From a virus, in the IMG/VR virus record IMGVR_UViG_3300044527_000246, positions 1-30,209 of that record: DNA of 30,209 bases. One strand, 5' to 3'. Position 1 is the first letter of the stretch; every line of letters starts with the position of its first letter. The notes under the pieces are model-generated. The model was not told where the DNA came from and ran no database searches. It saw only the letters and a list, made by a program, of their open reading frames with translations. A program made the translations under genes and the position numbers. This document shows positions 3,067 to 4,827 of the stretch, piece after piece.

Positions 3067-3581
3067 AGTTGTGATTTTAGCCATGTAAAGTTTCTGCCCT
3101 CATTAACAAGCCAGTCAAAGGTCCATTGCACACATGCACATCGGCACTTTTGATTGTCATCCCCATAGGCAGCTCTAAGTATTTCAACATCATCCTTGCC
3201 AAACCTTTTGAGCATTTTGTTAGTCTTTAGATAGTCATACCACTTATCCATCTGGTTAAAGGGCACTTTCTCAAAGTTTAACCTATATAACATAAGTTCA
3301 TAGTCTAACTTCTCTAGGTCTGTCTCTGGCACTTTAGCCTCTGGTATGGTTCGATATCCAGTAGGGGTCTTTTGTAAATTATGCCTATCCTTGTTATTAT
3401 TAGCCCATCTGGCCAGTCTCCTACCTAAATCCCAGGTTGTCTCCTGCTCAAATCTCATCTTGGTGTTAGACTTATTAGGCTCTGACCAGTAATCGTAGAA
3501 CTCTTGTTTCATTTGCTCTGTAAAGGCAAAGGGTTGTAAGTCTCTCTTAAAGTCTGCTGCTCTTGCTTCTATACTTTTCAT
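3063..3581 (-). CDS. Hypothetical protein, possibly replication-associated (172 aa)
   Basis: The protein is soluble, basic and rich in aromatic residues. Its N-terminal third contains FYDYWSEPNKSNTKMRFEQE, resembling the C-terminal segment I associate with primosomal or DnaD-like replication proteins of Bacteroidota phages. That link is from memory and is not demonstrated here. A CRCAC cluster (near residue 150) may hold a metal. The gene sits downstream of the DnaA-like gene and the endonuclease on the same strand; its ATG overlaps the endonuclease stop as ATGA, and its own stop overlaps the start of a tiny membrane peptide. The replication context is the main support for a role in origin or helicase loading. 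Confidence 0.65.
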   Translation of the reverse strand: MKSIEARAADFKRDLQPFAFTEQMKQEFYDYWSEPNKSNTKMRFEQETTWDLGRRLARWANNNKDRHNLQKTPTGYRTIPEAKVPETDLEKLDYELMLYRLNFEKVPFNQMDKWYDYLKTNKMLKRFGKDDVEILRAAYGDDNQKCRCACVQWTFDWLVNEGRNFTWLKSQL

Positions 3582-3976
3582 AGGTTGTGATTATCAAAAT
3601 ATTCACAAATAATATCATCAATTTTATCAATATCAGTATGCTTTATTCTTAGCAATTTAATACCTTTTCTGTAACAATATTGATTTTTATACTGATCGTG
3701 TATTTTTAATTTAGGCTGAAGTTTACCCATGTATCTGCCAGTCTGGTGCTGTATGCCATCAAATTCAATACATAAACGGTATTTAGGAATATAAAAATCG
3801 TAAAATAATAACTTAAACCTCTTTTTTACTGTAAAATCACTAAAAAAATGCTCACGAATAAAATCAATCTGGTTATTCATTAAAAAAGTAGCTATCCGAT
3901 TTTCTCCATCGGATAATTTTCTACCTTTGTGTTTTTTTAATAATTCTTTCTGATTATCTGATAAACAATAAGACAT
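3578..3976 (-). CDS. PD-(D/E)XK endonuclease, DUF559/Vsr-like (candidate homing endonuclease)
   Basis: The 132-residue protein has the core layout of the small Vsr/DUF559 group. A helix carries Glu25 (SDGENRIATFL), strand two is FYDFYIP (Asp60), and strand three is CIEFDGIQHQ (Glu71, Asp73, His77), ending with a Lys-rich recognition-like region and LLRIKH. This is the metal-dependent nuclease fold also used by EDxHD homing endonucleases. Codon choice and base composition are markedly more AT-rich than the flanking genes, which suggests recent acquisition. Upstream lies about 400 bp of structured non-coding DNA with its own promoter, and the start is preceded by a hairpin at 3984-3997. It couples to the next gene by ATGA overlap. 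A free-standing homing nuclease is the favoured reading; an RNA-linked or repair nuclease is possible. Confidence 0.75.
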   Translation of the reverse strand: MSYCLSDNQKELLKKHKGRKLSDGENRIATFLMNNQIDFIREHFFSDFTVKKRFKLLFYDFYIPKYRLCIEFDGIQHQTGRYMGKLQPKLKIHDQYKNQYCYRKGIKLLRIKHTDIDKIDDIICEYFDNHNL

Positions 3977-4382
3977 AATATACCCTATAAGGGTGTTATT
4001 CCTTTTTTTATTTTAATAATTCATTTCAGTATTGTAGTCGTTCGGATTATGCCAATCCTATCGCAATCTTAATGAACCCACAATCGGGCGGACCCCCAGT
4101 ATTATCTGCACCACTTAGGCAAGATGCAGTCGGACACTCTCTCTTTAATCATTAAGCCAATACCTTATAGAACTATTATTTTCGCAACTATCGGGGACAA
4201 TCTCAGCTCTATTTGAACCTACCAACCCGACTTCTGGACCACTATCTACCTACAAGGCCATCATGGTCGTAAATATTGCTAAATAAAATAACCCACTGAG
4301 GATTGGCGAGAGCTGCCGCACCCCAATGGGTCAATAATATCTTCTAAAACAAAGCACATAAAGTGGCTCTCCTTTGTCATAA
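3977..4382 (-). ncRNA. Candidate structured non-coding RNA (about 390 nt) with loop-bulge pseudoknot
   Basis: About 400 bp without a credible gene, in a genome that otherwise has almost no gaps. Elements (plus-strand positions): hairpin 1 pairs ACAAAGCAC (4349-4357) with GTG (4363-4365) and CTTTGT (4372-4377), leaving GCTCTC (4366-4371) as a bulge. Hairpin 2 pairs ACCCA (4291-4295) with TGGGT (4327-4331) and GGC (4305-4307) with GCC (4315-4317), with loop GAGAGCT (4308-4314). Six of those seven loop bases are complementary to the bulge of hairpin 1. A 7-bp stem, 4068-4074 with 4150-4156, encloses hairpin CTGCA/TGCAG (4106-4110, 4125-4129; inner CTT/AAG) and GGG-CGGA-CCC (4086-4095), which on the minus strand reads as a UCCG (UNCG-type) tetraloop. 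GGATT/AATCC (4044-4058) forms another. A strong leftward promoter lies just before it. No group I or II intron core, tmRNA or riboswitch was recognised. It could also be a structured replication origin or a leader of the endonuclease gene. Confidence 0.6.
3984..3997 (-). promoter_or_regulatory. Hairpin before the endonuclease start codon
   Basis: The inverted repeat ACCCT-ATA-AGGGT lies within 20 nt upstream of the endonuclease ATG (3976). On the leftward strand a purine-rich AAAAAAAGGA segment lies on the far side of the hairpin, so folding would either bring that element close to the start or hide the start region. Structured leaders of this sort are known for free-standing homing endonuclease genes of T4-like phages; the same role here is inferred. 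Confidence 0.35.
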
Positions 4383-4419
4383 CAAATATACGAAAAAAAA
4401 ATCAATCTACCAAAACTAA
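4383..4419 (-). promoter_or_regulatory. Bacteroidota-type promoter, copy 1 of the repeated 37-bp box
   Basis: On the minus strand, TTTG (4414-4411) and TATATTTG (4390-4383) are separated by exactly 20 bp, a perfect match to the Bacteroidota housekeeping promoter. The element overlaps the 3' end and stop codon of the DnaA-like gene. Transcription would start near 4379 and run into the structured region and the endonuclease. The spacer begins GTAGATT and ends TTTTTCG; the same layout is found on the opposite strand at 12140-12176, 30 of 37 positions identical. Confidence 0.75.
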
Positions 4420-4827
4420 TTTGCCTGAGTAATCCACAAATGTTATCTTCTGGTGTGATTTAACCCTACTTAGTTTCATAGAAATACCCAAATCTGAGGC
4501 TAAGTCTATGACTTTCAAGTAGTAAGGATAAAACTTGGGGTCCTCAATTTCTATGTAATGTTCAATCTTAGTTCTGTATATACTCATGGTGGAATGGTCT
4601 TTGTAACCTACTAAGGGTGCTATCTCAACAAGTTTAAGAGGGCAATGCTGGTAGATAAAGTAAGACAAGGACATTCTAATCTCTGAAAGCCTTACTTGTT
4701 CGCCATGTTTATTTTTGGCTATCTTCCAGTGGTTTCTCCGCTTTACTTCTTGTAATTGATCTAAAGTAATCCCATAATAGTTACAGACCTCATCAACTAA
4801 CTTAACTGCTTGCTCTCGTGTATTCAT
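4402..4827 (-). CDS. DnaA domain IV-like DNA-binding protein
   Basis: The 141-residue protein contains a helix-turn-helix region, VRLSEIRMSLSYFIYQ followed by LVEIAPLVGYKDHSTM (residues 73-81), which closely matches the DnaA signature (E-I-x-x-x-x-G-x-x-D-H-S-T-V) used to contact DnaA boxes. Residues 1-30 form another helical segment. The AAA+ ATPase of full DnaA is absent, so it binds DNA but cannot open an origin by itself. Phage relatives of this size are thought to be replication initiator accessories or regulators. It starts by ATGA overlap with the HTH gene upstream, lies in the replication block and is followed directly by the promoter and structured region, which could be its binding target. 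Domain call firm; role inferred. Confidence 0.8.
   Translation of the reverse strand: MNTREQAVKLVDEVCNYYGITLDQLQEVKRRNHWKIAKNKHGEQVRLSEIRMSLSYFIYQHCPLKLVEIAPLVGYKDHSTMSIYRTKIEHYIEIEDPKFYPYYLKVIDLASDLGISMKLSRVKSHQKITFVDYSGKLVLVD

Follow-up and report, generated by a model that had tools for sequence, protein, structure and literature searches.

A predicted family of structured RNAs in Bacteroidota phages, with a covarying bulge-loop pseudoknot in one lineage

The locus and its predicted RNA

The window, by which we mean the whole 30,209-nucleotide stretch analysed (positions 1 to 30,209 of IMG/VR record IMGVR_UViG_3300044527_000246), carries about 400 bp between a DnaA-like gene (4402–4827) and a DUF559/homing-type endonuclease gene (3578–3976; PF04480 E 1e-4, phrog_9084 E 6e-18), which lies outside the RNA described here; the RNA and both genes are on the minus strand. 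The DnaA-like gene matches the DnaA C-terminal domain below the Pfam cut-off, and it is 24.6% diverged between relatives that are 82–93% identical over the aligned genome. Folding and comparison with relatives show that positions 3982–4382 of the minus strand specify a predicted structured RNA of ~370–400 bases that is not protein-coding. When both strands were folded, as the first-pass annotation had proposed, the minus strand folded better than shuffled sequence (z = −2.1; 3 of 100 shuffles fold equally well) and the plus strand did not (z = 0.1). That annotation had seen no credible gene here, and the close relatives compared bear it out: the short frames have no conserved start or frame, and a one-base indel in the linker between the second hairpin (hp2) and helix P1 moves the reading frame between relatives, so a coding-region reading was dropped.

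The box TATATTTG at 4390–4383 fits the Bacteroidota −7 promoter motif, TAnnTTTG, and it is unchanged in all seven relatives; the RNA probably starts a few bases downstream of it. The first-pass annotation had proposed a promoter ending at the edge of this region. We infer that the window RNA is transcribed as a stand-alone molecule and has a function. Its 5' edge and main hairpins are as first described. The first hairpin (hp1, 4350–4376) has an invariant CAAAG/CTTTG outer stem, a 6-nt bulge (GAGAGC, 4366–4371, the 5' pseudoknot arm) and an inner hairpin in which three of the four stem pairs covary among close relatives. The second (hp2, 4290–4332) consists of a 12-bp stem, an internal loop, a GGC/GCC helix and a 7-nt loop; it is 100% paired, with two compensatory pairs in relative L012, and its loop holds the 3' pseudoknot arm GCTCTC (4308–4313).

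Downstream of these hairpins lies a junction that had not been recognised before and that proved to be the signature of a family (below). The P1 5' strand GCAAT (4275–4279) pairs with GTTGC (4184–4188), and the relatives carry both GCAAC/GTTGC and GCAAT/ATTGC. Within P1, the P2 strands GACCA (4264–4268) and TGGTC (4237–4241) covary family-wide and are followed by the core motif CAGAAG and the P3 5' strand TCGGG (together 4226–4236); CAGAAG is invariant in 35 aligned loci, which were themselves fetched with that motif. The P3 3' strand CCCCGATA (4189–4196) is placed by alignment and by P3 covariation in other phages, and the P1 3' strand is followed by a conserved GAAAA (4179–4183). The fold places the P4 5' strand AATAGTTC at 4170–4177, followed by TATAAG (4164–4169), and both fold and covariation place its partner, GAAAT plus the P4 3' strand GAATTATT, at 4015–4027, followed by TTAAAA; all six pairs of the homologous P4 covary in 32 phages. 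Inside P4 is a P5 domain (4034–4163), placed by the minimum-energy fold only, that differs from clade to clade. It contains the 7-bp stem CTTAATG (4156–4150)/CATTAAG (4074–4068), which the first-pass annotation had picked out and which is present in the minimum-energy fold of the minus strand; the stem is invariant among close relatives, so covariation is neutral on it. At the 3' end is the hairpin ACCCTTATAGGGT (3982–3994) with a conserved AGGG motif (3983–3986). The window thus matches the full set of family features, namely the P1/P2/P3 junction with CAGAAG, TYGGG and TCCCCRATA and P4 with TATAAG/GAAAT, and positions 4179–4270 of the minus strand score 77.6 bits with covariance model R1, in whose construction the window was included.

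Conservation and change among close relatives

Close relatives with the RNA at the same place were found among IMG/VR contigs (L001/L016, L002/L011, L010, L012, L013, L014 and L015). The first-pass annotation had noted that a six-base bulge, GCTCTC on the plus strand (4366–4371), is complementary to six of the seven loop bases GAGAGCT (4308–4314), and both are exactly where it placed them. It had suggested a covariation test of the region, which the relatives provide for the resulting pseudoknot: the bulge/loop pair is GAGAGC/GCTCTC in the window, AGAGAC/GTCTCT in L016, L014 and L015, TAGGAC/GTCCTA in L011, GTCAGC/GCTGAC in L010 and AATCGC/GCGATT in L012. Thus five different sequences keep all six pairs in all seven relatives (100% paired), and five of the six pairs have changed on both sides. 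Over the whole 5' structure (alignment A5) 30 pairs are 99.5% formed, with two-sided changes in 10, and the covariation score is 0.365 as compared with 0.121 (sd 0.023) for shuffled alignments and 0.019–0.073 when partners are slid. From these comparisons, conservation of the bulge-loop pseudoknot is far beyond chance.

The rest of the RNA changes little. Between close relatives the RNA core (4015–4279) has diverged at 1.0–2.3% of aligned positions, the flanking genes at 8.7–24.6% and the pseudoknot arms at 28–31%, so that one short helix shows fast, always-paired change in a nearly frozen RNA. Apart from the two arms themselves, we found no third site that covaries with the pseudoknot among the places in these genomes that carry the window's exact 6-mer, compared at aligned positions. 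A trans target inside the phage genome was rejected as a candidate, since no 6-mer site tracked the changes; this speaks against a target elsewhere in the phage and favours an arm-to-arm pairing inside one RNA molecule or from one copy to another. The two-hairpin 5' domain with its pseudoknot occurs in the window lineage only, and most clades begin at P1.

In the window lineage hp2 also contains GGTGCGGC(T/A)G (4314–4323, minus strand), which looks like a ten-base stretch close to the 3' end of bacterial 16S rRNA; the likeness is possibly chance. Mimicry of the 16S rRNA 3' end (ATCACC in common) was considered and dropped, as the stretch is not conserved across clades.

The endonuclease gene is reduced to its first few codons in five of the eight close relatives (L010 and L012–L015), in which the RNA is intact and is followed by ATGTCTTTTCGTTTAAGTAAA and then the next gene. 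In L012 the first endonuclease codons (ATGTCTTTTCGTTTAAGTAAACAATCT) are fused in frame to that downstream gene (MKSIEARAAD...), whose product would begin with a new N-terminus, and in the other four a stop codon lies behind the remnant codons. In none of the other phage clades examined does this gene adjoin the RNA.

The family in phages and bacterial chromosomes

Beyond the close relatives, blastn matched an intergenic region of cr118_1, a crAss-like phage (NC_055872.1), and this match was the entry point to the family. It yielded the motif CCAGAAGTCGGG...GTCCCCGATA, with which IMG/VR phage contigs and chromosomes were scanned; about two dozen pattern matches and several others were discarded by context as chance matches in coding DNA. 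At least 133 family loci remain (at least 90 after dereplication, chromosomal copies counted in), mostly from metagenomic contigs, and by these sequence criteria the window RNA belongs to an RNA family that is widespread in Bacteroidota phages. The common architecture is a P1 that closes the P2/P3 junction, then P4 with TATAAG facing GAAAT, and a variable P5 inside P4. Near-invariant core segments are CAGAAG and TYGGG (as CAGAAGTYGGG) and TCCCCRATA; this invariance is partly built in, since the loci were fetched by the core motif, and the helices outside the motif are free of this effect. Some P2 hairpins carry a GAAA loop. In 53 of 56 loci, as compared with 7.9 expected from shuffles, an AGGG follows P4 at a distance of no more than 75 nt, often directly before a start codon.

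Permuting the P1 3' strands among 34 loci lowered the mean pairing score from 5.14 to 3.58 (sd 0.15), and a wider scan showed that P3 covaries in other phages from C-G to U-A (TCGGG/CCCGA to TTGGG/CCCAA). For 32 phage copies of one clade, 28 pairs in P1–P5 are 94% formed with two-sided changes in 21, and the covariation score is 0.448 as compared with 0.208 (sd 0.012) for shuffles and 0.035–0.146 for slid partners; since the structure that was scored came from these very sequences, the unshifted register has an advantage here, a bias from which the shuffles and the P1 permutation are free.

The core model finds one copy in each phage record searched with it, the exception being one doubtful second match of 21 bits, and the phages include contigs up to ~165 kb. 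Among named phages cr118_1 is the only real relative found by blastn with several clades as query; Campylobacter phage matches were rejected as relatives (a short 30-base match), and plasmids gave no match. We take the phage hosts to be Bacteroidota, as cr118_1, the chromosomal copies and the promoter motif suggest. A strict TAnnTTTG box lies upstream of the RNA in only 25 of 77 phage loci, where 7.5 are expected by chance. In four phages (L173, L179, L180 and L199) the RNA 3' end reads AAGGGG....CC and is followed by an AT-rich stretch, in which a TATATTTG-type promoter-like box precedes the next gene.

Among bacterial genomes the core model matched 1 of 395 sampled from the whole of the Bacteroidota, 3 of 190 in one Bacteroidales family, and 2 of 108 in the order of the MAG G004. 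The three Bacteroidales MAGs hold 12 copies (G001, RUI415), 17 copies or 15 at a stricter filter (G002, RUG14866) and one copy (G003). The MAG copies have their own promoter box, and a GC-rich inverted repeat marks the end of most of them; behind most of the listed chromosomal copies the next gene is on the opposite strand, and one MAG copy was found among housekeeping genes. Together with the promoter-like box behind the RNA in the four phages above, the box and the GC-rich repeat of the chromosomal copies point to a stand-alone unit. Several further observations concern these genomes. The multi-copy loci of G001 and G002 lie within the series L101–L127, and most G001 copies have extended flanks in common and adjoin opposite-strand genes whose products have a C-terminal tail resembling a type IX secretion signal. 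Two copies in G004, a Flavobacteriales MAG, are near-identical along the RNA body, whereas the sequences around them are unrelated (L109 and L112, alignment A9), as though just the RNA had been copied. One chromosomal copy has a tmRNA gene some hundreds of bases upstream of it (L109 929–1297/L090 678–1048).

Possible roles and comparison with known RNAs

The reading that we favour, to which we give slightly better than an even chance, is that this is a new non-coding RNA family, present once per genome in tailed Bacteroidota phages, whose members would be transcribed from their own TATATTTG promoter, released as stand-alone molecules and act in trans. The near-invariant core would bind a partner conserved across Bacteroidota hosts; its persistence in otherwise dissimilar phages suggests such a host partner or a common phage process. 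The 5' pairing would be a self-recognition element that locks the fold or joins copies of the same RNA, and it may diversify so that related phages avoid cross-reaction. The first-pass annotation had offered a new phage RNA as one of its readings, and the strong covariation, the lack of an Rfam match and the lack of a conserved protein frame all support this.

A cis-acting leader, in which the RNA would be the 5' UTR of the operon that follows and control elongation or translation (for example by exchange of the P3 strand UCCCC with the 3' AGGGG element), is possible, although we hold it to be doubtful. The RNA does head an operon, and the genes to its two sides mostly diverge: of 59 phage loci, 57 have their next gene downstream in the same orientation as the RNA, and in 36 the gene at the opposite flank is directed away from it. 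One large clade has terminase genes behind the RNA, with the small subunit (25 of 101 proteins) as the first gene of some size and the large subunit next, and the conserved AGGG (above) could also belong to a leader. However, in other clades the downstream genes are tail, lysis, ribonucleotide reductase or unknown genes, unrelated between clades, and the distance from the RNA to the next gene varies from ~135 to 970 nt. These changing neighbours, the second promoter-like box that follows the RNA in several phages and the chromosomal units, most of which have no operon behind them, favour a stand-alone RNA over a leader. It is unlikely, in our estimation, that the bulge-loop pair instead joins RNA copies into a ring or cage, as in phi29 pRNA or ROOL and GOLLD. 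Both pseudoknot arms covary and diversify fast, and the kissing pairs of ROOL and of GOLLD, itself a phage and prophage RNA, are intermolecular and covarying (PMC12286853), but only the window lineage has the pseudoknot, most clades having no such 5' domain, and pairing within one molecule should be sterically possible across the 17–18 nt linker.

A catalytic or mobile RNA, such as a ribozyme or a retroposon-like element, seems very improbable to us. The near-invariant core, the GAAA loops in some P2 hairpins, the multiple copies in G001 and G002 and the two G004 copies whose likeness is limited to the RNA body could be read in this way, but Rfam gave no intron or ribozyme match, no reverse transcriptase or transposase was noticed beside the RNA, the window copy interrupts no gene, and phages have one copy each. 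The first-pass annotation had also considered a guide or leader RNA for the endonuclease and a structured replication origin beside the DnaA-like gene, and these we regard as scarcely credible. Both genes do adjoin the RNA in the window, where the endonuclease family matches homing nucleases and the other gene has its weak, below-cut-off DnaA match, but neither accompanies the RNA in other clades. The guide reading is rejected because of the five relatives in which the endonuclease gene is nearly gone and the RNA persists, and the origin reading is unsupported because the RNA elsewhere lies beside terminase, tail, lysis or other genes and because selection acts on base pairs of the RNA strand.

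Few large structured RNAs have a near-invariant core, and those that do are usually central in role; this family may reveal a new phage use of RNA or a conserved target in a major group of gut and environmental bacteria. A more adventurous version of the favoured reading, for which we see only a slim chance, is a new phage RNA machine in which the variable bulge-loop pair would be a copy-to-copy code, and which a Bacteroidales lineage would have adopted as a chromosomal gene family of 12–17 copies, possibly as anti-phage decoys. The conserved core provides a precise search model, and the pseudoknot provides a genetic test by swapping one arm or both.

The view that the RNA belongs to no known class has held. 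With Rfam 15 there was no match in the window at the gathering cut-off and none up to E 10 for the RNA region or for family locus L043, while two other family loci (L180 and L118) gave only chance-level matches far below the cut-off. No match was found to the group I or group II intron models, to the phi29-type pRNA model or to GOLLD and ROOL, whose covariance models are part of the Rfam library, which was scanned as a whole, and ARAGORN and Rfam detected no tmRNA or tRNA. A search of open-access papers found no description of the RNA. By comparison with Rfam 15 and those papers the family appears to be new, and its kind, a structured phage non-coding RNA of unknown function, is one that it would share with GOLLD and ROOL.

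HEARO/OMEGA RNAs are similar in that a structured RNA adjoins a nuclease gene in the window, but that protein is of the DUF559/homing type, not IscB or TnpB, and most of the relatives with the RNA lack it. Antitermination leaders of the put/EAR type are structured RNAs that head an operon, as the family RNA also does; the latter is much larger, has another sequence and also occurs as stand-alone multi-copy chromosomal units. The phi29 pRNA, likewise from a phage, has a three-way junction and complementary loops that differ from one phage to another, and one clade's RNA precedes terminase genes; however, the RNA here is much larger, the terminase-linked clade encodes a terminase small subunit, and the loop-bulge pair is absent from most clades. 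GOLLD, which occurs in phages and prophages, and ROOL are also large structured RNAs of unknown function with covarying loop pairings, but at several hundred to >800 nt they are longer than the family here (~240–400 nt), and their sequence core is unrelated. Their loop-junction kissing pairs are intermolecular and covary, and they form RNA-only homo-oligomeric cages (PMC12286853). By analogy, the pattern of change in the pseudoknot resembles that of the specificity pairs of pRNA and of ROOL and GOLLD (PMC12286853 for the latter two).
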